IMG/VR virus record: IMGVR_UViG_3300032284_001598
Span: 1-22,001 of that record
Length of the DNA stretch: 22,001 nt
Strand: one strand, 5' to 3'
Source: a virus
Part shown: one piece after another, positions 1-17,493 of the stretch
Position numbering within the stretch: position 1 is the stretch's first letter
Layout: each line of letters starts with the position of its first letter
The notes under the pieces: generated by a model
Databases searched by the model: none
What the model saw: only the letters and a program-made list of their open reading frames with translations
What the model was told of the DNA's origin: nothing
Made by a program: the position numbers and the translations under genes

Positions 1-171
1 GTCGTCAAATTCGGGCCGTACTTCAATGTTGAAGGTTCCACCGGGCTGAAGGGTCAACTTCTTCCCGTGAATCACTACAGCGGCAATCTGGGTCAATTGA
101 CAACCATGCGGGTTAATACCAGTAGTCTCTAGATCGTACACGACATAATCGCGATATGTATTGAGTGCCAT
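1..171 (-). CDS. DnaQ-type 3'-5' proofreading exonuclease, 5' part only
   Basis: The 57 visible codons run off the left edge of the window. The N-terminus reads VVYDLETTGINPHGCQLTQI, which carries the ExoI motif (D-x-E followed by TTG) of DEDD-family exonucleases such as the DNA polymerase III epsilon subunit. The conserved DLE supplies two metal ligands. ExoII, ExoIII and the rest of the protein lie outside the window. The ATG at 171-169 overlaps the TAA of the preceding 70-residue gene (TAATG), so the two are probably translationally coupled. Its position just after a DNA polymerase III alpha gene suggests it supplies proofreading to the phage polymerase in trans; that role is inferred from family and context. 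An RNase T or generic DEDDh nuclease role cannot be excluded from this fragment. Confidence 0.85.
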   Translation of the reverse strand, partial: MALNTYRDYVVYDLETTGINPHGCQLTQIAAVVIHGKKLTLQPGGTFNIEVRPEFDD

Positions 172-383
172 TATTTATCCTTCAATTCTAAAAATTTTGC
201 AATTGCTTCATTTAGGTCATAATATATTTGCGAGAATTTATTGCTATGGACTTGATAGATCCCATTCTTTTTTCCGCGATACCAAGGAACATGATTCCTT
301 AAGTCACACAAAGAAATATCCTTATAGTCAATATCATTACCATCTCTAATAACTGTTGCGTAATCTAAAAATTTATCATTCAT
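171..383 (-). CDS. Hypothetical 70-residue protein between polymerase and exonuclease
   Basis: I do not recognise this gene. I start it at the ATG at 383 (MNDKFLDYATV) because a GGAAA lies about eight bases upstream; the frame stays open to 431, but that would overlap the polymerase far more. It overlaps the polymerase stop by 8 nt and its TAA overlaps the exonuclease ATG. The C-terminal half (WYRGKKNGIYQVHSNKF, then YYDLNEAIAKFLELK) looks like two or three short beta strands followed by one helix. That layout loosely resembles AP2-type or other small DNA-binding domains found with phage homing endonucleases, but no diagnostic residue makes this firm. Its place at the break point of a truncated polymerase makes it a candidate passenger or remnant. 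Confidence 0.65.
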   Translation of the reverse strand: MNDKFLDYATVIRDGNDIDYKDISLCDLRNHVPWYRGKKNGIYQVHSNKFSQIYYDLNEAIAKFLELKDK

Positions 384-1872
384 GTGTAATTTCCATAATT
401 TTATCCAAAAGATTAACCCCAAGGACATCAAACTTTGTTAGTCCCACTTTGTCTAAGTCATGCATTTCAAACCCCACAATTGGATTACCTTCTCTATCCT
501 TAATCAATGGAGCATCGTTAATTAGATCATCATTAGAAATAATTACTCCAGCAGGGTGTTTGCCTTGACTTTTATAAGTTCCTTCTATTCTTATAGCAAG
601 ATCAAACATATCTGACAACTCTCCACTTAAATTTCCATCCTTATCTAGTTTGCACCACTTCTCCAGCTTATCGGGTTTATTCTCAAGAGTCCAAAGAATA
701 ACAGATTTAATATCCATTTCTTCTAGTTCGTCAGATATACTAGCTTCTTGAGGCAAACTTTCAGTGATCTCATTCAATTCGGAAAAAGATAAGTCAGCAT
801 AGATACGGGCAACTTCTTTAATTACTGATCGCCCCTGAAGACGACCGAATGTAATCATTTGAAATACTCGACTATAACCATACTTATTTTTAAGATAATC
901 AATAATCTGATCTCTGTACTGAGATGGAACGTCCATATCAATATCCGGTAATGAGATGTTGTCTTTGCTAAATCGTCCTGAGTTCAGGAAGCGAGAGAAT
1001 AATAAGTCATATTTTACTGGATCAATTTCTGTAATGCCTAATAGATAAGATACTAAACATCCACCAGCAGATCCTCTTCCCGGCCCCGGCAACCAACCAT
1101 TATTTCTAACATATGCAATAATATCTTGCACAATTAAAAAGTACCCCGCAAGACCAAATCCATTAATAATGGATAGTTCATACTTTACACGATCTGCATA
1201 CTCATTACGTTTATCACCTTTTAAATGTGATAATTTCTTCTTCCATCCATCTCTACAAAGTTGAGTAATGTACTCTTCTTCGGTTTGACCTTGACAATCT
1301 ACTTTAGGAAGTTTAGGCTTGGAGAATATAGTATAGTCTTGGAGTTCAGAAATTAACTGCTCATTTGCAAAATGTTGCGTTTTAGTAGGTATAATTTTAT
1401 GTGTTGGATGAAAGAAATAATGATCAGATTCAAAGAACTTTTTATATTCTCCCATGTCAATATCTTTGGCTTTTTTCAAAGTCGTTTTAAAACCTGAGCA
1501 TAAAGAAATTCTATGTAAGATAGCATCTCTTTGATCTGCATAATATACACTCATAAGAGCGAGTTCATCCCCCTTATAAAATTGCAGATCTTTATTATCA
1601 TAAATGATATCTTCTCCAGATACTAGCCTAATAAGAATCTTATATCCAAATAATGATTTTACAATATAGTAACCACCATCAGCCTTCCAGCCAATGATGG
1701 GAACTATACCTTCTTTTTTCATACAGCTAAAGAATTCAACTACACCACTCAATGAGTTATCAGCAAGCAAACAATGAGTATAGCCAAGTTCTTTGCACTT
1801 TTTAGCTGCCTCATCTGGCTTGATGAAGCCTTTTAATAACGAATAATGAGTTGTAATACTAGGAATTAACAT
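376..1872 (-). CDS. dnaE-like: DNA polymerase III alpha subunit, N-terminal half (truncated or split)
   Basis: This is a C-family replicative DNA polymerase. The N-terminal 70 residues form a PHP-like domain (THYSLLKG, then GIVPIIGW). The palm follows: GPGRGSAGG at residues 263-271 is the signature loop, LPDIDMDV holds catalytic Asp312 and Asp314 (matching D401 and D403 of the E. coli enzyme), and LTKFDVLG holds the third catalytic Asp482 (matching D555). The protein ends 16 residues later, at residue 498. Normal alpha subunits exceed 1000 residues, so the fingers, beta-clamp binding, OB and C-terminal domains are missing. The reading frame is otherwise clean. The start is supported by AAGGAA upstream, and the ATG abuts the stop of the nuclease gene (TAAATG). 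The missing half may lie beyond the left edge as a second gene. On its own this piece would not be expected to polymerise. Confidence 0.9.
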   Translation of the reverse strand: MLIPSITTHYSLLKGFIKPDEAAKKCKELGYTHCLLADNSLSGVVEFFSCMKKEGIVPIIGWKADGGYYIVKSLFGYKILIRLVSGEDIIYDNKDLQFYKGDELALMSVYYADQRDAILHRISLCSGFKTTLKKAKDIDMGEYKKFFESDHYFFHPTHKIIPTKTQHFANEQLISELQDYTIFSKPKLPKVDCQGQTEEEYITQLCRDGWKKKLSHLKGDKRNEYADRVKYELSIINGFGLAGYFLIVQDIIAYVRNNGWLPGPGRGSAGGCLVSYLLGITEIDPVKYDLLFSRFLNSGRFSKDNISLPDIDMDVPSQYRDQIIDYLKNKYGYSRVFQMITFGRLQGRSVIKEVARIYADLSFSELNEITESLPQEASISDELEEMDIKSVILWTLENKPDKLEKWCKLDKDGNLSGELSDMFDLAIRIEGTYKSQGKHPAGVIISNDDLINDAPLIKDREGNPIVGFEMHDLDKVGLTKFDVLGVNLLDKIMEITHE

Positions 1873-2913
1873 TTATTTTCCTTGCTGAATGCTTCCGGGA
1901 TCTTGATATTTTCCAATAACGAAACCCGACTTAGAACATGTAGCCACAGTCTTTTCCATACCAATAGTATAGAGTTGCTGTTCTACGTGGTGACACATGG
2001 TCTTATCGGTTCCGGGCCAATTGGTTTTGTAAAAATGACATAGCTTTTCGCATTTGAAATTCTTACGGTCTCGTGAGATTGGCTTGGGCGTTTGATTCAT
2101 TGTAATCTCCTTAAACATTTTTTCAAGTGTCTTAAGGAAATTTTTATCATCATCTTCATCAAATGCAAGAGTGAAAGGTCCACCATCCCTACAAAAGAAT
2201 ATTGTCATCAATGCATATCTGTGTTGAGGATATAGTTTACTCACTGCGTAATGATATAATAGCAGTTGCATATCTTGCATCAGCTTGGCATAATCTTTCT
2301 TCTCTCCGGTCGCCCAGTCAAGCCTCTGTCCAGTTTTCCAGTCGATTACCTCAATTGTACCATCTGGGAGTTCAGTGACAAGATCAATTGTTCCTTTTAT
2401 GGCAAGATTTCCTGAAATTTCTTTTCCGTCTGGACCCGTGAAACTAAATTTAGCCCAAGGCTCTTTAATTGGAATATCAAAGTGAGGTTCTGTATCAATA
2501 ACTTTACGATTACGAGGGTCAAATTGTCCCTTATTATATGCAAGGGTGTCCCATACCATTTTATAGCAGAATTCATAATCCTTCTGATTGAATTCATTAT
2601 GAGTACAGTGTTTTTTATAATAGTCAAAACTTCTACCAAGAATATAGTTTACAAACTCATCAGTAAATAATTCTTCTTCAGTAAAAGAAAAGTCACCCAA
2701 TGGCTCTTGAGTGACTTTCATTTTTCCTCTTTTATTAAACTGTGTTCTCTTTTTACATATTGCTAATGTTTCAAATACAGCGTGAGTTATTGTACCCATG
2801 TCCGCACGTTTCCCTGATGGGGATTGCCACCCCAAAACGTATTGAAAAAAATAACTCATTTGGCAATACTTCCATTGGTTCAGGGAGGACGACCGAAAAT
2901 ACGTGATGATCAA
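1873..2913 (-). CDS. PD-(D/E)XK exonuclease, RecB/Cas4-like with probable Fe-S cysteines
   Basis: The 346-residue protein has the RecB-type nuclease core: THAVFE with His44, GTIDLV with Asp177, IDWKTG with Asp191 and Lys193 as the D-x-K catalytic pair, and MQLLLYHYA as the QxxxY motif (Gln216, Tyr220). Cys17 near the N-terminus and Cys288, Cys292 and Cys307 near the C-terminus are arranged as in AddB or Cas4 proteins, where four cysteines bind a 4Fe-4S cluster; the cluster is inferred. It probably processes DNA ends during recombination or replication. The start is TTG: AGGAGA lies five bases upstream, and the first internal ATG is at residue 19, after the conserved FRSSSLNQWKYC segment. No CRISPR array or cas1/cas2 is present, so I do not call it Cas4. 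Confidence 0.88.
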   Translation of the reverse strand: MIITYFRSSSLNQWKYCQMSYFFQYVLGWQSPSGKRADMGTITHAVFETLAICKKRTQFNKRGKMKVTQEPLGDFSFTEEELFTDEFVNYILGRSFDYYKKHCTHNEFNQKDYEFCYKMVWDTLAYNKGQFDPRNRKVIDTEPHFDIPIKEPWAKFSFTGPDGKEISGNLAIKGTIDLVTELPDGTIEVIDWKTGQRLDWATGEKKDYAKLMQDMQLLLYHYAVSKLYPQHRYALMTIFFCRDGGPFTLAFDEDDDKNFLKTLEKMFKEITMNQTPKPISRDRKNFKCEKLCHFYKTNWPGTDKTMCHHVEQQLYTIGMEKTVATCSKSGFVIGKYQDPGSIQQGK

Positions 2914-3014: not shown

Positions 3015-3833
3015 TTATTTAATTGACATTGTACTTGGTTTTCTTGCAGGCTTTTCCATTGATGGTATATCTGTTTTTACATCAAACCAGCCCCATCCAC
3101 TAATAATTTCAATTAGTTTTTGACATGATTCTTCAATCCCAAGATTTTGAGTATCTATAACAGCGTCAAATCCATCATAATTATCTAGAGCTAACTCGCT
3201 TGAATGATAATCTTCACCTTCAATTGTTCTAGTTAATCTAATAACTTTACCACCTGCATTTTGAACTGCCTTGACTTCATTCTCAAATCTAGCATCTGAG
3301 ATAATTGCCAAATTTGATTCTTCAGCAAGAATGTCTTTAATAGTTCTATCTGTCCATATGTCTGGATACATTTTTCTACATAGATCAGTTCCAAAATATT
3401 GCATGAATTCTCTACCAGTCATAAATCCAGATTTACCTTTGATCTTAACTGGCATATCTTCCCACTTGTATTGAGTTGGTGTATTTTTTTGTTCGTCTGT
3501 TCCATAAACAGATTCGCGAGGAATATTAAATAGCCCAATTGCAATTTCCTTTAATGCGGTTGCAAATGCATAATGTTTAACAAAAGGCCAAATATTATCC
3601 ATCGCCCAAACTGCAAATTCAATATCTAATCGCGTTACATCTATTCTGCCCTTGCCCTTAGAAATCTTTCCATTTTCTTCTCTGATACTGGTTTCAACTA
3701 CAATATCACCTGTATCTGCAATTTCAAAAGCATCAATCAAATTATATGATTTTAATTGATACCCATGAATAAAATTACAAAGAGTATTCTTACCACTTTG
3801 CTTTTTTCCAGAAAATGCTAAAATTTGAGTCAT
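3015..3833 (-). CDS. Deoxynucleoside monophosphate kinase, phage T4 gp1-like
   Basis: This family phosphorylates dNMPs to dNDPs for phage DNA synthesis. The P-loop is GKKQSGKNT at residues 9-17. GREFMQYFGTDLCRKMYPDIW and IISDARFENEV in the second half are typical of phage deoxynucleotide monophosphate kinases; the latter carries the conserved D-x-R-F-x-N-E signature. At 272 residues it is slightly longer than the T4 enzyme, with a charged segment at about residues 50-65 and a Lys/Pro/Ser tail. The ATG overlaps the primase TAA (TAATG). It sits in a replication operon and matches the other dNTP-supply genes in the window (ribonucleotide reductase, dCMP deaminase, dUTPase). Which dNMPs it accepts cannot be read from sequence. 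Confidence 0.88.
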   Translation of the reverse strand: MTQILAFSGKKQSGKNTLCNFIHGYQLKSYNLIDAFEIADTGDIVVETSIREENGKISKGKGRIDVTRLDIEFAVWAMDNIWPFVKHYAFATALKEIAIGLFNIPRESVYGTDEQKNTPTQYKWEDMPVKIKGKSGFMTGREFMQYFGTDLCRKMYPDIWTDRTIKDILAEESNLAIISDARFENEVKAVQNAGGKVIRLTRTIEGEDYHSSELALDNYDGFDAVIDTQNLGIEESCQKLIEIISGWGWFDVKTDIPSMEKPARKPSTMSIK

Positions 3834-4915
3834 TAAAATAATCCCTTCATCTGAGGTTTGAGTTCTGTTTCAATTTCTTCAATAGTCATTTCACCAATGT
3901 CTTTTTTAGATATGATTGGCCTGAAATAATTAAATCTTCTTCCACCTTTATTTATAATTCCCTGTGCAGCTTTTTCTCCAGCCTCATCTGTATCTGTTAA
4001 TATAATAACATTCATTACTCCAAGTTTTTCAAGTGCGATCAACTGATCTTCACTCAAATCAGCACCGAAGATTCCTGCACAATTTTTTATACCAGCTTCA
4101 TATAATCTCCAAACATCTCCTTGTCCTTCCACCAGAACTATAGATGAAGTTTTTTGTATATGAGATTTAGTTATCCAAAGTCCATATAAATAGAAAGATT
4201 TCTTAAATCCTTTGCTATTGAGCCATTTATACTTTTTATCATTATCGTCTAGACTTCTACCGACACATCCAATATAATTATAGCTTTCATCGTATATAGG
4301 AACCACTGCCCGATTATACATTTGCCTATGAGGATTATAGCATTCGCCAACGTCAAAAGCAATTAAGGTTTCTGGTAAATATCCACGACCGATAAAATAT
4401 TTTGATGGGATTTCTAGTGAGCTAACTATCTGGTCTCTTGATATACCCAAAGATACCTTTTCTGGTTCTCTGGTCAAAACTTCCATTAACTTATTATTGT
4501 TATAAATAGTTTCAGAAATCTTCTCTTCTTCAATATCTATAAGCTTTTTATTTAAGAATGATAAACAATAATTAATAGCAGAATAGAATGTTGCTTCTTT
4601 CCCCTGTTTTTGGGATAGCACACCCTTTACAAATCCAATAATGTTCTTTCCATGATCTCTTTCGCATCCATGTGTCCAGCAAACCCAGTTTCCTTTTGAT
4701 TTATTGCCATCCGTAAATATGCAAGCCCCTTCACAGTTGTCTCCCCCGTGAACGGGACATGCAAAAGCAATTCTATTCTCAAATTCATTATATTCAATTT
4801 TCAAAGATTCTAATAGAGATGGTAATTTATTTGATAGCTCATTGCATATCGAATAGATTTTCTCCCGACTGATCTTCTCGTTCTTCGAATGGCGGTTCAT
4901 CGTTTTGTTGGACAT
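3833..4915 (-). CDS. DNA primase with CHC2-like zinc finger and TOPRIM domain
   Basis: The N-terminal region has a zinc-binding pattern: CPVHGG followed about 25 residues later by CWTHGC, giving C-x2-H and C-x4-C (Cys53, His56, Cys79, Cys84 from this start). The C-terminal half holds a TOPRIM fold: IVLVEGQGDVWRLYEAG supplies the conserved Glu, and VIILTDTDEAGEKAA supplies the D-x-D motif. Together these identify a DnaG-type phage primase that lays RNA primers for the neighbouring helicase and polymerase. The start is uncertain. The ATG at 4915 has GGAG nine bases upstream, a GTG at 4930 is also in frame, and the ATG at 4900 lacks a site. Every choice overlaps the helicase 3' end by more than 60 nt, which is unusual here. 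Confidence 0.88.
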   Translation of the reverse strand: MSNKTMNRHSKNEKISREKIYSICNELSNKLPSLLESLKIEYNEFENRIAFACPVHGGDNCEGACIFTDGNKSKGNWVCWTHGCERDHGKNIIGFVKGVLSQKQGKEATFYSAINYCLSFLNKKLIDIEEEKISETIYNNNKLMEVLTREPEKVSLGISRDQIVSSLEIPSKYFIGRGYLPETLIAFDVGECYNPHRQMYNRAVVPIYDESYNYIGCVGRSLDDNDKKYKWLNSKGFKKSFYLYGLWITKSHIQKTSSIVLVEGQGDVWRLYEAGIKNCAGIFGADLSEDQLIALEKLGVMNVIILTDTDEAGEKAAQGIINKGGRRFNYFRPIISKKDIGEMTIEEIETELKPQMKGLF

Positions 4916-6299
4916 TATTAGCTGCTCCACTCTTTAATTCATTTCTTGTAAACCATTCAGTCAATTTAGCCGTTGAGCCATTCATTTTTATATTTATATA
5001 GTCACCTTGATCAAGTCCAGAACCGTGACGATTTTTGAGAAATACAATTTTACGATTGCCATGTTGATCACCGTCATCTGCAATCTCTTCATCACTTTTA
5101 ACTTGAAATTTAGCCACTGTGGTTGCAAGCCATTGTAATCTATCAGATTGGGCAATTTCTTCTTCTCTATTCAATTGTACAAAAGAAAGGCATGGAACAT
5201 CATACTTAATACAAAAATCGTTCATCTTAGTAATTTGAAATCCAAGAGCCTGATATTCCTGCATTGCAGCAGATAATCCAGCACTACTCATTAATTTGAA
5301 GTAGTCATAAATAATTAAACAATCTTTCGTTTTTCCATTCCCGTCTACTCCAACATGTTGATGAATCCATTTCTTCATGATATTTAGAATATTATCAAAT
5401 GGTTGACCGGCAATTGACATATAGTGATAAGGTATATCTTTCAAGTAATTAGCTGCTCGCATGACGCTTTCTTTTGACATAAAGCTATTTGCAAACTTAC
5501 CCTTAGCAATATCATTAATTTTAATACCACTAATATTTGCCAACATACGATTTCTCTGATCTTCAATATCCATTTCGGTATCAAGATAAAGAGTTGGTAT
5601 ATATAATTTACCTGCTGTATGCAATGCAACATTTGTAGAAATAACGCTTTTGCCAACGCCTGTTCTAGCCCCAATTAAGCATATGGATTTTCGTCGAACT
5701 CCTCCTCCAATAGCTTCATCGAAACGATTAAGGCCGGTAGGAATCCCAAGATAGTCAACAGGATTATCAATAAGGTATTGAACATACTCATCAATTTTAT
5801 CTCCAACTAACATTGTTTGATTGCTATGATCTTTATATGCCGCTGAAGTAATCTCAATAATTGGATTCTCGACTAATCCAATAATCTCTTCAATTCCCTC
5901 ATCGCCTGTAATTTTATTTAATGCTTTATCACAACTTGCGATTGTTTTTTTCATATCTCTAGCAAGTTTTAACTTAGCTAACTTGGCTGCAAATTTAGGC
6001 ACATTATCTTTATTGATTGGAAAATTAAATAACGACCGAATGAATCCCATTTCGGTCGTCTTATTAATTAACTCATAAACTCCTAATTTTTGAGCAGTGG
6101 AAAATATAGTTAAATATTCGATATTTTGATTATTAGCAATAATATCTTGGATACAACTATATATAACTTGATTTAATTCATGTGCAAAATAATCAGCATC
6201 AATAAAATCTAGCTCTACGTAAACTTCCAAGCCGTACTGGCAAATGCCCGCAAGTACAGCACGTTCAACGGGTAAATTTTCAAGTACAGCTTGGCTCAT
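4839..6299 (-). CDS. dnaB-like: Replicative DNA helicase, DnaB family
   Basis: The 486-residue protein has a DnaB architecture. The N-terminal helical domain is at about residues 5-115 (ERAVLAGICQ; the DADYF segment). A linker and the RecA-like motor follow, with Walker A GARTGVGKS at 210-218, TLYLDTEM as motif H1a, CLIIYDYFKLM as Walker B, and a late KNRHGSG segment containing the arginine-finger region. It should unwind DNA as a hexamer ahead of the phage polymerase and recruit the adjacent primase. The C-terminal 30 residues are acidic and probably disordered, and they overlap the primase start. GGAG lies ten bases before the ATG. A perfect 9-bp inverted repeat inside the gene (6032-6059) is not clearly meaningful. 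Confidence 0.93.
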   Translation of the reverse strand: MSQAVLENLPVERAVLAGICQYGLEVYVELDFIDADYFAHELNQVIYSCIQDIIANNQNIEYLTIFSTAQKLGVYELINKTTEMGFIRSLFNFPINKDNVPKFAAKLAKLKLARDMKKTIASCDKALNKITGDEGIEEIIGLVENPIIEITSAAYKDHSNQTMLVGDKIDEYVQYLIDNPVDYLGIPTGLNRFDEAIGGGVRRKSICLIGARTGVGKSVISTNVALHTAGKLYIPTLYLDTEMDIEDQRNRMLANISGIKINDIAKGKFANSFMSKESVMRAANYLKDIPYHYMSIAGQPFDNILNIMKKWIHQHVGVDGNGKTKDCLIIYDYFKLMSSAGLSAAMQEYQALGFQITKMNDFCIKYDVPCLSFVQLNREEEIAQSDRLQWLATTVAKFQVKSDEEIADDGDQHGNRKIVFLKNRHGSGLDQGDYINIKMNGSTAKLTEWFTRNELKSGAANNVQQNDEPPFEEREDQSGENLFDMQ

Positions 6300-6640: not shown

Positions 6641-7021
6641 TTAATTTCCCTTTCCGTATAACTTCTTAACAATTCGTGGAAGTTTATTATAAGATTCTAC
6701 GATCTTATCAGCTTGATCTTGTGTTAATTGACGATTTTCTTCAGCAAGTTTCTTTTCTGCAATAAGTTTGTTGTTCGCTTCAAGTAAAATCTTATTAGAC
6801 TTTTGCAAATCTTCAGAATATGCATGTAATTCTGCAAGCTGCATCTCATATTCAAGCACTTGCTTATCAAGCTCAGCAACTTGATTCTTTAGAGAAGGCG
6901 TATCTGCATCTCCATATTGACGGGCGTTTAATTCATAAACATGAATTGTTTCGAGTTGATCGACCGCAGCTCTAATTGCTTCAAATTGATTGTAAGCATT
7001 CAATGGATTTTTTTCTGACAT
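6641..7021 (-). CDS. Coiled-coil protein, probable paralogue of the next gene
   Basis: This 126-residue protein has no recognised family. Residues 10-35 are mixed helix, and residues 45-115 form a charged coiled coil (VAELDKQVLEYEMQLAEL, then LLEANNKLIAEKKLAEENRQ). It finishes with YNKLPRIVKKLYGKGN, which matches the C-terminal motif of the gene at 6301-6639 (L-P-x-[IF]-[VI]-K-[KR]-x-Y-G). The strong ribosome binding site AAGGAGA overlaps the stop of the preceding Pro-rich gene. The two coiled-coil genes lie back to back, with the Pro/Val/Gln-rich exported peptide just upstream, suggesting one functional unit. That unit is inferred from order only. Confidence 0.82.
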   Translation of the reverse strand: MSEKNPLNAYNQFEAIRAAVDQLETIHVYELNARQYGDADTPSLKNQVAELDKQVLEYEMQLAELHAYSEDLQKSNKILLEANNKLIAEKKLAEENRQLTQDQADKIVESYNKLPRIVKKLYGKGN

Positions 7022-7032
7022 TTTAATTCTCC

Positions 7033-7260
7033 TTAAGGGTAAATTCTATAGATTGGGTATGGGTAATATACAGGTTGATATACTGGAACCTGCAATGGTA
7101 CATAAACAGGTCGTGGAACTACAATATACTGGGGTTGTTGAACCACATATTGGACTACTATTGGTTGCGGCTGTTGAACCACAATTTGTTGTGGAATATA
7201 TGGGTTAACTACAAAAAGTTGACCCAGTGTTGACATTGCTAAAAAAGCTAAAGCATTCAT
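7033..7260 (-). CDS. Short Pro/Val/Gln/Tyr-rich peptide with signal-like N-terminus
   Basis: The 75-residue peptide starts with a hydrophobic segment (MNALAFLAMSTLGQLFVV) that could be a signal peptide or anchor. The remainder is almost wholly Pro, Val, Gln, Ile and Tyr in a repeating pattern: QQIVVQQPQPIVVQYVVQQP, then PVYVPLQVPVYQPVYYPYP. There are no Cys and almost no charged residues. No enzyme motif is present, and the composition suggests an extended, surface-associated or self-assembling peptide. The ATG overlaps the HNH stop (ATGA), and its GAGGTG ribosome binding site lies inside the final codons of the HNH gene. It is a real gene by site and spacing; its function is unknown. Confidence 0.75.
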   Translation of the reverse strand: MNALAFLAMSTLGQLFVVNPYIPQQIVVQQPQPIVVQYVVQQPQYIVVPRPVYVPLQVPVYQPVYYPYPIYRIYP

Positions 7261-7958
7261 ATTTCACCTCTATTTTTTCCTACTAAAATACAAAAATCAA
7301 TAAAATCCTGATCGGACAAAACGCCCTTCATCATATTTACTTTTTTATGTACCCATTGTACATTTCCTTCAATATATCCGTTTCTGGAATCTATTCTATC
7401 TATTGAGGCATTGTAAGTAAATTGTGTTTTCTTTGTGGGCATAAATAATTCTAAACCTGTATAAACACACTTTCTATCTTGTTGTACATATATATCCCAC
7501 AACTTTTGATTGGAGATATCATATTCAATATTTCTATCCATAGCTCCATTTATGAATTTTTGTATAAACCAATCTGGCATATCTTCAAATTCTTTAACAA
7601 ATTTAGGATGTTGTTCACTATCACTACACCCACATGAAGGAGTATTTTTAATTCTGGAAGATCTGATTGTAAATATTTTACCACAATCACATTGAGCATT
7701 CCACATTTTTTCGCCAGCATCAAATGTTTTACTTAGATTCAATATGGTATAATTATCATATCTATTTCCATCTAAAGGCTTAGATACTGATTTCTTCTTT
7801 CCATAATCAATTCCATTTTGATTGCAATATCTTTGGATTACGCAATGTCGATATCCTTTTTCTTTTGCAATATCTGTGATGCTTTTTCCACTCTTTATAA
7901 GAGTTTCAACATCTTGCAAATTATCTCTTGACTTAACTCTATTGCTACCTCGTCGCAT
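7257..7958 (-). CDS. HNH homing endonuclease, free-standing
   Basis: Residues 10-50 contain a helix-turn-helix resembling those in phage HNH nucleases (SITDIAKEKGYRHCVIQRYC). A small zinc-ribbon-like segment follows (WNAQCDCGKIFTI, then SCGCS) with paired cysteines. The C-terminal nuclease core is ASIDRIDSRNGYIEGNVQWV followed by HKKVNMMKG, the usual HNH signature in this family with the GN-V-Q-W segment. This layout matches site-specific DNA endonucleases that mobilise themselves between phage genomes. The start is supported by GGAGGA eight bases upstream, within the end of the preceding gene (14-nt overlap). Its 3' end encodes the ribosome binding site of the Pro-rich gene. No intron or intein boundary is seen, so it is a free-standing gene. 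Its C-terminus is homologous to the remnant at 2910-3011. Confidence 0.85.
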   Translation of the reverse strand: MRRGSNRVKSRDNLQDVETLIKSGKSITDIAKEKGYRHCVIQRYCNQNGIDYGKKKSVSKPLDGNRYDNYTILNLSKTFDAGEKMWNAQCDCGKIFTIRSSRIKNTPSCGCSDSEQHPKFVKEFEDMPDWFIQKFINGAMDRNIEYDISNQKLWDIYVQQDRKCVYTGLELFMPTKKTQFTYNASIDRIDSRNGYIEGNVQWVHKKVNMMKGVLSDQDFIDFCILVGKNRGEI

Positions 7959-8205
7959 TTAAAAAATCCTCCGCAAAAAGAAGGCCATTCATGAAACTCT
8001 CTACAGAATTTTTACTGCGTGATATTGCAACTTGATATTGAATATTGTCATATTCTATTGGCATAATCCATGCATTATCATCTATTCTTTCATAGAACTC
8101 TGGAGCTGACTGCTCTACTATATCATACAGCTCAGTCGGCAAGTTGTCAAGAATAATTCTTCCATCTTTTTTAGAAAAGACTTGTATATAGCTTTTATTT
8201 TCCAT
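7945..8205 (-). CDS. Hypothetical 86-residue protein
   Basis: I do not recognise this gene. The ATG at 8205 (MENKSYIQVFSKKDG) overlaps the TAA of the upstream membrane protein (TAATG). The frame is open further upstream, but that would run through the membrane gene. The protein is mixed alpha/beta with an acidic middle (VEQSAPEFYERIDDNAWIMP) and no membrane segment or cysteines. It ends with TAG, and its last codons carry the ribosome binding site of the HNH gene. A small cytosolic phage protein is all that can be said. Confidence 0.7.
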   Translation of the reverse strand: MENKSYIQVFSKKDGRIILDNLPTELYDIVEQSAPEFYERIDDNAWIMPIEYDNIQYQVAISRSKNSVESFMNGLLFAEDFLNATR

Positions 8206-8429
8206 TATTGTCCTACTGGCACAGGTATGCCAAAAAAGAAATGTCCGGCTAGAAATCCTACAAAAAACCCAAAGAAGAATGGGACTATGGGCCATTTTCG
8301 ACTAACGCTGAAAACGACCCAACTAATCGTAGCCTTTCCTTTTATTACTGCATATACATCATAGCTTATTAAAGCAAAAAATGTAACTATTAGCCAGACA
8401 AAGGTAATACTAAATATTATTTCTGTCAT
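8205..8429 (-). CDS. Small membrane protein with two predicted helices
   Basis: From the ATG at 8429, chosen for GGAGAT four bases upstream over the in-frame TTG at 8441, the protein has 74 residues. It shows two hydrophobic segments: IIFSITFVWLIVTFFALI near the N-terminus and IVPFFFGFFVGFLAGHFFFG near the C-terminus, separated by a short loop with Lys and Arg. This gives a hairpin topology in the inner membrane. It overlaps the tiny upstream membrane ORF by 20 nt. A holin-like or superinfection-type role is conceivable for any phage hairpin protein, but nothing here is diagnostic. Confidence 0.72.
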   Translation of the reverse strand: MTEIIFSITFVWLIVTFFALISYDVYAVIKGKATISWVVFSVSRKWPIVPFFFGFFVGFLAGHFFFGIPVPVGQ

Positions 8430-14428: not shown

Positions 14429-15310
14429 TCATGATACAGTGAAGTAGTTATTATTATTTTTATAGGTGTACTTGTATATGGAATAATTACTTTGTCCAGC
14501 ATCACCTCCACTTCTATCTACATTGGTCAAGAAGCAATGATCTCCAAGACTTATTGCTGGTGGACCACCTATTGATATAGTTTCATATTTATCTTCGACT
14601 TTATCATCTATTAATCGACCGAGACTTGTACTTGTGTATGTGCTATTTGATTGGCTATATCCTCTATCTAATACTTCATATGTACAACTAACGTCAATTG
14701 GAAAAGCTATGTATTTTCCACGAATCGTATAAAATCCACCGTATGTTGGCACAGTTCCATAGTTTATATTGATACTGGCTTCAACACTTAAAAGAGCGTG
14801 ACCATTTGTTATTAGTCCTGCAACATCAGAAGGCTCACCTCCTAATGAATAGTGCTGTCTTCTTCCGACATCGCCTTGGTCTGTTGAACCACTAAAGTCT
14901 GAAGAACTTCCCGTGGATTCTACGACATGGCCCTCATAAGTCACCTGTTCTGTAAAATTTCCCTGATTAGAAAAATTAAATGATGCGGATTTTAATACAA
15001 AGTCTTTAAATAATAATCCACCACCGCTAACGATATCTATTTGTACGTCCTTAGCTTCTGGATCATTATATATTTTATTCGCTAAATTAAATCCACTTAA
15101 TAATGCATTTCCTCCAGAGGATGTTAAAAAGTTACTTACACTAATTGTATATGTTGGTTTTTTATAATAATTATATACATTAGTCGGTAAACCCTTTTGA
15201 AAAGTCGGATTAACATCCATAGAGCGAGTCACGGTGACGGTTTGCGCCCCCATGACTTGACTCCCTACGGAAACTCTATGTACAAAATATCTAACGATAT
15301 CTATTGACAT
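14429..15310 (-). CDS. Beta-rich virion structural protein, tail-tube-like
   Basis: The 293-residue protein is rich in Ser, Gly, Thr, Asn and Tyr and appears to be mostly beta strand. The segment VLKSASFNFSNQGNFTEQVT followed by YEGHVV resembles the strand-turn-strand signature in phage tail tube and related virion proteins; VQIDIVSGGGLLFKDF precedes it. I call it structural with moderate confidence; an identity as tail tube, tail completion or baseplate component is inferred. It starts at the RNR stop (TTTAATG) and ends ten bases before PhoH. Finding a virion gene between ribonucleotide reductase and PhoH is unusual, since such genes normally sit in a late module. Confidence 0.6.
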   Translation of the reverse strand: MSIDIVRYFVHRVSVGSQVMGAQTVTVTRSMDVNPTFQKGLPTNVYNYYKKPTYTISVSNFLTSSGGNALLSGFNLANKIYNDPEAKDVQIDIVSGGGLLFKDFVLKSASFNFSNQGNFTEQVTYEGHVVESTGSSSDFSGSTDQGDVGRRQHYSLGGEPSDVAGLITNGHALLSVEASININYGTVPTYGGFYTIRGKYIAFPIDVSCTYEVLDRGYSQSNSTYTSTSLGRLIDDKVEDKYETISIGGPPAISLGDHCFLTNVDRSGGDAGQSNYSIYKYTYKNNNNYFTVS

Positions 15311-17493
15311 TAAACTATCTCACATGCTCCACCAGTACATGCCATTGCTTGTTCTAGTTGGGTATCATCATATTCTTCGATTACTTGTGTGTAATCTACA
15401 TCTTTATACTCACGCTTTAGTTCAGTCCAAAGTTTGAAGTTATAAATGTCCTTCATGCAATAGGTAAACTTTTTAATATCGCCATCAAAATACTTGTTGG
15501 CAAATTTTCCACATCTTAGAACCCACTCTTCTTTAGCTTTGCCTTTAATCGGAGCGCCAAATCCAAGTAAGCTATCGCAAGCTGCCCAAAGGTTGTCTTC
15601 AAATAAAGTTAAGGCCACTTCGATCAAACCGCTTGCAAACATAACTCCATCTCCATAATGTGCAATCATCTCACTAGGTAAATACACAGTAGTGAACGGA
15701 GCTTGTGGATAATCCTTATCGCCTGTTACTGGCAAAAGGGAAATACCACAGAAAAATTCACGATTGTTATATATAAACTTCTCAACTTCTTCCCATTCAT
15801 TAGGCTTGACATTGATAGTGTTACTCACATTGTGATTAAGCCAAGGTTTAGTACAAAGCTCTTTATTGGTCCCCGGCAATACCCAATTTTGTTGAGTTGA
15901 CTTTACCGTCTTAAGAAGTTCAATAGCGGTGATTTGATTTTTAGTCTTGCTACCGTCAGGAACTTCAATACAGAAAGCAATTACATCATCGGTCCTATTG
16001 GCCGACCAAACAGATTCTTCGCACGCCCTTGGGTTGATATTATTGAAATGCTGGTAGATCGCCTCCATCTTATTCGCCTGAACGCGACGAATATAGCGTT
16101 TAGCATGATGAGGGTGAATACCACTAGCAGTCCCAAGAATACAGGAAGCAGTTCCTTCAGGCTTAACGCAAGTAACTCTAGCGGCTTGATTAATACCAAT
16201 TGCAGCAGCGACCATTTTGTTTGTTGTTTTGGCAAGTTCTGCTGCCTTTCTTTGAATTTCTGCATTTAAACAAATTTCAGGCTTTTCAAACCAACCTGTT
16301 CCTGATACACCAAGTAGTGCTTCTCTGGCAAAGATCTTCTCACTAGTTTTTCCAAGGTAAGGAAAACTATTAAAACCAGCTTGTAAAGTTCCAATAATAG
16401 TCACAGCACGAACTGCGTCATAGAAGTCTTCTTCGTTAGTTACTTTAGCACAATTAACAGTTGAAAGATTACATCCCTGCCATCCGCTTTCGCCAGTTTC
16501 TATATCAACTGGATACATGCCAATCTCAACGCATGGATTAACAATAAAATCTTCGTCGTCAGCCCATACAAATCCCGGCTCGCCAAACTCTTTCACCGAC
16601 TTCATCAATTCAGCAAATTGCTCAGGAGTTGTTTTGTCTCTAATTAGCAAAGCTGAATTATTAGAACGTCCACGTTGGGGATTATCAATAAACCAATTAC
16701 CAGTTTTAGCAGTTGCCATTTCCTTATCATCTGGTGAAAATAAGCAAATAGTAGCGCTTCTACGTACTCCGCCACTGATAACAGCATCGGCAAAGTGCAT
16801 AACTATGTCATATACTTCGATTGATTTCAATCTGCCATCACCGCGAAGCATGGCTTTATCAAGAATATCTTTAATCTTTTCAAGTGCTTTTTTTAGTGGT
16901 TCTGGACCCGGAGCTTTACCACCACCTGAAATTCTTGTACCTTTGGCTCTGATCTTATCAAAAACAAATTGAATATCTTTGCCTTTATAATCTGGAAATT
17001 CAGTTTCAGCATCAAAATAAGATGAGATTAAAATACCTACAGCATCGCTCCACCCTTCAATATCGTCAGGAATTGTATATTTTACTTTTCCAGACTTGCT
17101 AGTTAAAAGATTGGGCAACTTGTTGATATGCTTTGTTTGTACTGAAAATCCTACACCGCAACCACAAAGAAGCATATACATGCATTCTTGAAAGAATCTA
17201 GGACGATCTGCAAATGATACAGTGCAATTAAACATGCGTGCATTGTGTTTGAAGATAGGATCTCCGCCAAACTGCAAAGCTCTTTGCGACCCCAATCCCT
17301 TTTTCTTGAGCATCATATCATATGCCCAATCAATCATTTTATGAACATCTTCATTTTTATCTGCATATTGCTTATGCATCATCGAACGAACACGATCAAC
17401 GCTTTCTTTATACGTTTCGCGTCTTTTCTTTTCGGGAATGTATCTTGCGTACTTACCTGTAAATGTATAGTCTTGCAGTGCTTTAATTGACAT
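15310..17493 (-). CDS. nrdJ-like: Ribonucleoside-triphosphate reductase, class II, adenosylcobalamin-dependent
   Basis: The 727-residue enzyme should reduce ribonucleoside triphosphates to deoxynucleotides using a cobalamin-generated thiyl radical. Its length matches the monomeric Lactobacillus-type enzyme. Visible active-site features are FNC (Cys90) and CNL (Cys341) as the redox pair, NPCVEI with the radical Cys321 and Glu323, the CVKPEGTASC phosphate-binding loop, and a C-terminal ACTGGACEIV whose Cys719 and Cys724 would re-reduce the active site. No flavodoxin or small-subunit gene is needed or seen, as expected for class II. GAGG lies seven bases before the ATG. It follows dCMP deaminase closely, forming a nucleotide module. 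No cobalamin riboswitch is present upstream. Confidence 0.94.
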   Translation of the reverse strand: MSIKALQDYTFTGKYARYIPEKKRRETYKESVDRVRSMMHKQYADKNEDVHKMIDWAYDMMLKKKGLGSQRALQFGGDPIFKHNARMFNCTVSFADRPRFFQECMYMLLCGCGVGFSVQTKHINKLPNLLTSKSGKVKYTIPDDIEGWSDAVGILISSYFDAETEFPDYKGKDIQFVFDKIRAKGTRISGGGKAPGPEPLKKALEKIKDILDKAMLRGDGRLKSIEVYDIVMHFADAVISGGVRRSATICLFSPDDKEMATAKTGNWFIDNPQRGRSNNSALLIRDKTTPEQFAELMKSVKEFGEPGFVWADDEDFIVNPCVEIGMYPVDIETGESGWQGCNLSTVNCAKVTNEEDFYDAVRAVTIIGTLQAGFNSFPYLGKTSEKIFAREALLGVSGTGWFEKPEICLNAEIQRKAAELAKTTNKMVAAAIGINQAARVTCVKPEGTASCILGTASGIHPHHAKRYIRRVQANKMEAIYQHFNNINPRACEESVWSANRTDDVIAFCIEVPDGSKTKNQITAIELLKTVKSTQQNWVLPGTNKELCTKPWLNHNVSNTINVKPNEWEEVEKFIYNNREFFCGISLLPVTGDKDYPQAPFTTVYLPSEMIAHYGDGVMFASGLIEVALTLFEDNLWAACDSLLGFGAPIKGKAKEEWVLRCGKFANKYFDGDIKKFTYCMKDIYNFKLWTELKREYKDVDYTQVIEEYDDTQLEQAMACTGGACEIV

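Follow-up and report, generated by a model that had tools for sequence, protein, structure and literature searches.

A predicted two-subunit C-family DNA polymerase in a phage clade, broken at the palm/fingers linker around a DnaQ-type exonuclease gene

Replicative polymerases of the C family are, to our knowledge, otherwise seen as one large chain, and the viral DNA considered here raises the question of how a gene encoding only the first part of such an enzyme is to be understood. In the window, by which is meant the whole 22,001-base stretch that was analysed, an open reading frame designated dnaE-N ends just past the third catalytic aspartate of a DNA polymerase III alpha subunit. The initial annotation took it for one half of a stable split polymerase, broken at the palm/fingers boundary, and suggested that the other half might lie beyond position 1. 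The features of the window that bear on the question are:

1..171, minus strand: 5' part of a dnaQ-type DEDDh exonuclease gene, truncated by the window edge
171..383, minus strand: small ORF of 70 aa (beginning MNDKFLDYATV), its start overlapping the dnaE-N stop by 8 nt
376..1872, minus strand: dnaE-N, 498 aa, predicted N-terminal subunit (PHP relic, thumb and palm) of a split C-family DNA polymerase
945-943, 939-937 and 429-427, minus strand: codons of the catalytic aspartates D310, D312 and D482 of dnaE-N
1873..2913, minus strand: PD-(D/E)XK (Cas4/RecB-like) nuclease encoded next upstream in the operon, with a stop that abuts the dnaE-N start codon
3015..3833, minus strand: deoxynucleoside monophosphate kinase, syntenic context
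3833..4930, minus strand: DnaG-like primase (Toprim), syntenic context
4839..6299, minus strand: DnaB-like replicative helicase, syntenic context

The dnaE-N frame is clean. Pfam profiles place a PHP domain at residues 8-108 (E 9.5e-11) and the entire PF07733 (DNA_pol3_alpha) domain at residues 200-485 (profile positions 1-260 of 260, E 2e-73), and the same search of the window protein found no finger domain. The protein has the motifs GPGRGSAGG, LPDIDMDV and LTKFDVLG, an alignment with 11 relatives shows D310, D312 and D482 to be invariant, and the chain ends 16 residues past D482 and 13 residues past KFDVLG, all in agreement with the length, motifs and early end first reported. An AlphaFold model of the protein (pLDDT 84.5) retrieved only DnaE and PolC structures among its top Foldseek matches (E down to 1.8e-29). 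The product therefore carries the PHP domain, the PF07733 palm/thumb and the three catalytic aspartates by which a C-family (DnaE) enzyme is recognized; the single polypeptide that is likewise part of that definition is lacking at the split loci described below. A good ribosome binding site precedes the start codon, right behind the stop of the upstream gene (AAGGAAAATAA-ATG), and the 8-nt overlap between the dnaE-N stop and the ATG of the next ORF (CATGAATGA) makes translational coupling plausible; both signals had been read correctly at the outset, as had the 70-residue ORF and the DnaQ-like exonuclease that follow. The former (383-171) matches no known family and is kept in near relatives and missing from others, and the first 57 residues of the exonuclease frame (171-1) match RNase_T (E 9e-7). 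Elsewhere in the window, a 727-aa B12-dependent (class II) ribonucleotide reductase is encoded at positions 15310-17493 (minus strand); its match to the barrel domain is only partial. The record contains no C-terminal half of the polymerase, and because it comprises just 22,001 bases in all, that half was sought in relatives.

A first scan of viral contigs yielded 42 relatives and was followed by two deeper scans. Among relatives with 41-92% identity, the N half, where complete, always ends 15-25 aa past KFDVLG, and the recurrence of one stop position in every complete relative is far beyond chance. Of 22 first-round records, 19 have the finger domain (PF17657) on an ORF of its own farther downstream; the remaining three gave no finger-domain match, and two of these visibly run out just past the N half. 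Every sufficiently long related viral contig encodes the C half as a separate downstream ORF of ~510-600 aa with the order fingers-HhH-OB (HHH_6 and OB matches were found in contig L027), as had been surmised for the sequence beyond position 1. The finger, HhH and OB domains that complete a DnaE are thus supplied in trans by the same phage in these relatives, outside the window record. The arrangement is seen in full in contig L019 (90% identical):

6910-8406: dnaE-N
between dnaE-N and the exonuclease: small ORF of about 70 aa
8608-9315: complete exonuclease, 235 aa
9337-10932: dnaE-C
beyond dnaE-C: SSB, then glycosyltransferases

Classification with HMMs found 174 viral loci split and none genuinely contiguous, and all 78 bacterial loci with both parts contiguous. 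In an enlarged set, the exonuclease-containing split viral loci numbered 221, contiguous viral loci of other lineages 92, and every one of the 80 bacterial loci was contiguous; redundancy is substantial, and 126 distinct split loci remained once N halves sharing >80% of their 5-mers were merged. An assembly error at the stop is excluded by its recurrence in >100 independent sequences, and the stable break at the palm/fingers boundary proposed initially was borne out. A few of the related contigs are chimeras. L017 was rejected as a contiguous locus, since it is split like the rest and its second match is a chimeric contig end; L120, with genes resembling those of a cellular chromosome between its polymerase halves, is likely chimeric as well. 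In L031 (6011-6013), a lone in-frame stop lies within GPGRGSAAG of an otherwise intact N half, as a sequencing error or unusual decoding. A literature search, with most subscription literature outside its reach, found no description of this split arrangement.

The history of the break was examined with a tree of 162 palm-plus-finger sequences (FastTree, IQ-TREE). MT836213 and MT837297, the best-scoring "phage" matches, were dropped because what they encode resembles bacterial DnaE from gut scaffolds. Both records (MT836213.1 and MT837297.1, "Bacteriophage sp.", loci L307 and L304) hold a bacterial-looking full-length dnaE, with a sensor-kinase-like neighbour in L307, and are likely mislabelled bacterial DNA. 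The split phages form a perfect bipartition (support 100) with one state change, and their sister group consists of three unsplit loci, L317, L322 and L348 (support 100 in FastTree, 99 in IQ-TREE). These nearest relatives share with the split clade the gene order helicase, primase, dNMP kinase, PD-(D/E)XK nuclease, DnaE, SSB, the nuclease of L317 and L322 being the same upstream neighbour as in the window, and in L317 a glycosyltransferase follows the SSB gene. Unlike the split clade, they encode DnaE as one polypeptide of ~1120-1140 aa (1122-1138 aa in L317 and L322), and no RNase_T (DnaQ-type) exonuclease was found in their contigs, which are partial. Monophyly of the split, together with an unsplit syntenic sister in which no exonuclease was found, points to one ancient break at which the exonuclease was gained; on the simplest reading, the exonuclease gene would have landed in, or accompanied the break of, the palm/fingers linker in a single event. 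The split clade has no close isolate in the phage-record collection searched: among 50,697 phage records, the closest matches to the N half were about 35% identical, two of the top-scoring ones looking bacterial, and tblastn with the helicase, glycosyltransferase and exonuclease reached isolates at only about 22-26% identity. A search with Terminase_6C for lineage assignment gave no match.

Several observations indicate that the two halves together make up one enzyme. On PHROG 405, the N half covers positions 245-609 and the C half 626-1053, adjacent and without overlap, and on Taq DnaE they cover residues 7-631 and 642-1110. The spacing from KFDVLG to FQLES amounts to 13 + 32 aa when the window N half is combined with the L019 C half, vs about 46 aa in unsplit L322, so that almost no linker residues were lost at the break; the cut falls in the loop that joins the last helix of the palm to the first of the fingers. 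The separate C half was modelled with a pLDDT of 86.9, and the models of both halves match DnaE structures. The finger motifs RPG, YQEQ, RKAxGKK and FNKSH are invariant or nearly so across the split clade, and dN/dS values of 0.04-0.11 in both halves denote strong purifying selection. A full-length copy elsewhere in the genome would have undermined the split-gene proposal; 18 large related contigs (77-244 kb, possibly incomplete) have exactly one PF07733 each, and no family-A or -B polymerase (including PF00136) and no second DnaE palm were found in them. Contigs in IMG/VR are mostly fragments, and "only replicase" here means as detected within contigs. Across >120 distinct phage sequences, the split thus appears to be a heritable working arrangement rather than a broken gene.

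A real split need not imply a polymerase, for the N half could now be a regulatory or nuclease subunit while the host DnaE replicates the phage. The degenerate PHP domain of the window's subgroup fits such a role, as do the clamp searches: one for a beta-clamp gene was negative, and the clamp-binding motif Qxx(L/M/I)(F/L/Y) after HhH, present in 60/75 bacterial DnaE, occurs in 34/203 split phage loci vs 22 expected by shuffling, which is not above chance. Of the fingers and clamp-binding domains that had been described as missing from the ORF, therefore, the fingers are indeed found in trans in relatives, but the C half carries no clamp-binding motif above chance. A non-polymerase role is nonetheless improbable given the (near) invariance of the three catalytic aspartates and the four finger motifs across the clade, and given that the halves are part of a full replication operon that also encodes helicase, primase, SSB and exonuclease.

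Still less probable is that a split intein like that of cyanobacterial DnaE, or an RNA-level intron, joins the halves into one covalent polymerase. Cyanobacterial split DnaE genes are joined in this way according to the literature, and split inteins are present inside the polymerase halves of some relatives (L027, L198). At the break itself, however, there is too little room for intein fragments, with ~13-25 aa after KFDVLG in the N half and usually ~15-20 aa before TWDLI in the C half; no Hint/intein match was found among window or L019 proteins; the DNA between the halves is an intact, coupled exonuclease gene; and no Rfam intron was found in six sources at the gathering threshold. The N- and C-terminal intein fragments that define a split-intein DnaE are thus missing at the break, and the intein that the initial annotation had proposed looking for at the junction was not seen. 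Where inteins do occur, they lie elsewhere. In L027 (3530-6443), the C half is interrupted a second time: the split intein found here (FNK|CLSPKT... and ...GIATSN|SHAV) encloses a NUMOD3/homing-endonuclease ORF between its two parts, so that three genes contribute to the polymerase; L044 (10613-12139) carries, in its finger domain, an HNH-containing cis intein at IIRPG|C; and in L198 (2784-5126) a split intein interrupts the catalytic motif GPGRG|SAAG in the palm of the N half. Inteins usually reside in functional essential genes, and their position at catalytic motifs in these three relatives suggests that both halves matter and supports their being functional.

The weakest alternative, a decaying or truncated pseudogene in a phage that uses another polymerase, is invited by the window itself, which shows half an enzyme, and was rejected as scarcely credible on the dN/dS of both halves, the same break in >120 distinct sequences, and the searches for PolA, PolB or a second DnaE palm in the 18 large, possibly incomplete relatives.

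The best explanation, to which we assign a probability of roughly 0.85, would therefore be a noncovalent two-subunit C-family replicase expressed with its exonuclease from a coupled operon. It would account for the conserved break point, the half encoded in trans, the exonuclease between, the purifying selection, the sole detected replicase, the monophyly and the unsplit syntenic sister, as these appear from sequence. The window ORF would be the N-terminal subunit (PHP relic-thumb-palm), bearing all three catalytic aspartates, and the gene for the C-terminal subunit (fingers-HhH-OB) would lie shortly beyond the left end of the window, past the small ORF and the DnaQ-type 3'-5' exonuclease gene. 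Both subunits are most likely translation products of a single coupled operon, and the halves and the exonuclease most likely bind one another noncovalently to form the phage replicase, in which the N-C complex would be polymerase-active and the exonuclease would proofread for it.

The exonuclease gene is the constant element of the gap. A complete DEDDh (DnaQ) gene separates the halves in each of the 174 split loci of the first set (126 non-redundant later), and its D13, E15, D124, H193 and D198, which make up the DxE, D and HxxxxD signature, are 100% conserved in relatives. It overlaps or abuts its neighbours at ATGA or TAATG junctions, which point to coupled translation, and other genes, endonucleases included, come and go around it. 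Endonuclease-VII-like genes lie inside the gap at L005:9712-10542 and L029:10160-10546, making it a recurring insertion site. The state of the PHP domain was scored by the nine-residue active-site motif HHDHEH[C/H]DH, as used in PMC12926913. This motif is intact in 49/126 split representatives, whose N halves are longer (median 634 aa, flanks included); most of the others, the window's among them, have lost it. In the sister group it is intact in L317 and L322 and not in L348. On the tree, loss falls mostly in one clade, with several single losses besides. In the window's subgroup, PHP persists only as a fold, its metal ligands lost, so that the PHP-like segment noted initially is retained as a Pfam match but not as an active site. 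It is plausible that proofreading passed from PHP to DnaQ. More speculative, and on balance unlikely, is an obligate three-polypeptide replicase (palm subunit, exonuclease, fingers subunit) whose exonuclease, acquired just as the gene broke and kept between the halves since then, bridges the halves or regulates their assembly and also took over PHP proofreading.

Precedents for divided C-family polymerases differ from this split. In cyanobacterial DnaE of the Synechocystis/Nostoc type, the break lies within the fingers region; that dnaE gene too is naturally split, but its parts are far apart and joined by a split intein, whereas here the break falls in the palm/fingers linker, within one operon and with no intein at the break. 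In group 2.2 jumbo phages, a minimal Pol III alpha is split into distant genes and is proposed to reconstitute, and a family-B replicase is used (Iyer et al., 2021, PMC7824862). What the two systems share is a C-family polymerase that a phage encodes in two separate pieces; in those phages the core is minimal and other Pol III domains are missing, whereas here the two genes of a near-complete DnaE flank an exonuclease gene within a single operon, and this DnaE is the sole polymerase found, with no PF00136 in 18 contigs. Closest in break point is the cultured Corynebacterium phage P1201 (DQ499600; L460:1516-4876), in which two Pol III alpha ORFs, gp59 and gp58, are separated at the same palm/fingers linker. 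Unlike in the split clade, these ORFs are overlapping/adjacent with no exonuclease between, and P1201 is a single isolate with unsplit corynephage relatives, far off in the tree; its break either arose independently or is a frameshift. Gordonia phages Terapin and Suzy and the Microbacterium phage PhunaPhoke (L300, L301, L308) also have DnaE in two adjacent genes, but the break lies upstream of the palm, the first gene encodes about 320-345 aa, and in Terapin and Suzy palm and fingers are still together.

Standard annotation masks the split, since each half is named DNA polymerase. A split clade with an exonuclease gene inside the cut, beside an intact syntenic sister, amounts to a natural before/after experiment, relevant to the ways in which a replicase may be divided and to the causes of intein-free splits in phage genes. 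With both PHP states within the clade, it bears also on the replacement of PHP proofreading by DnaQ, and it would supply a split replicative polymerase for biochemistry.
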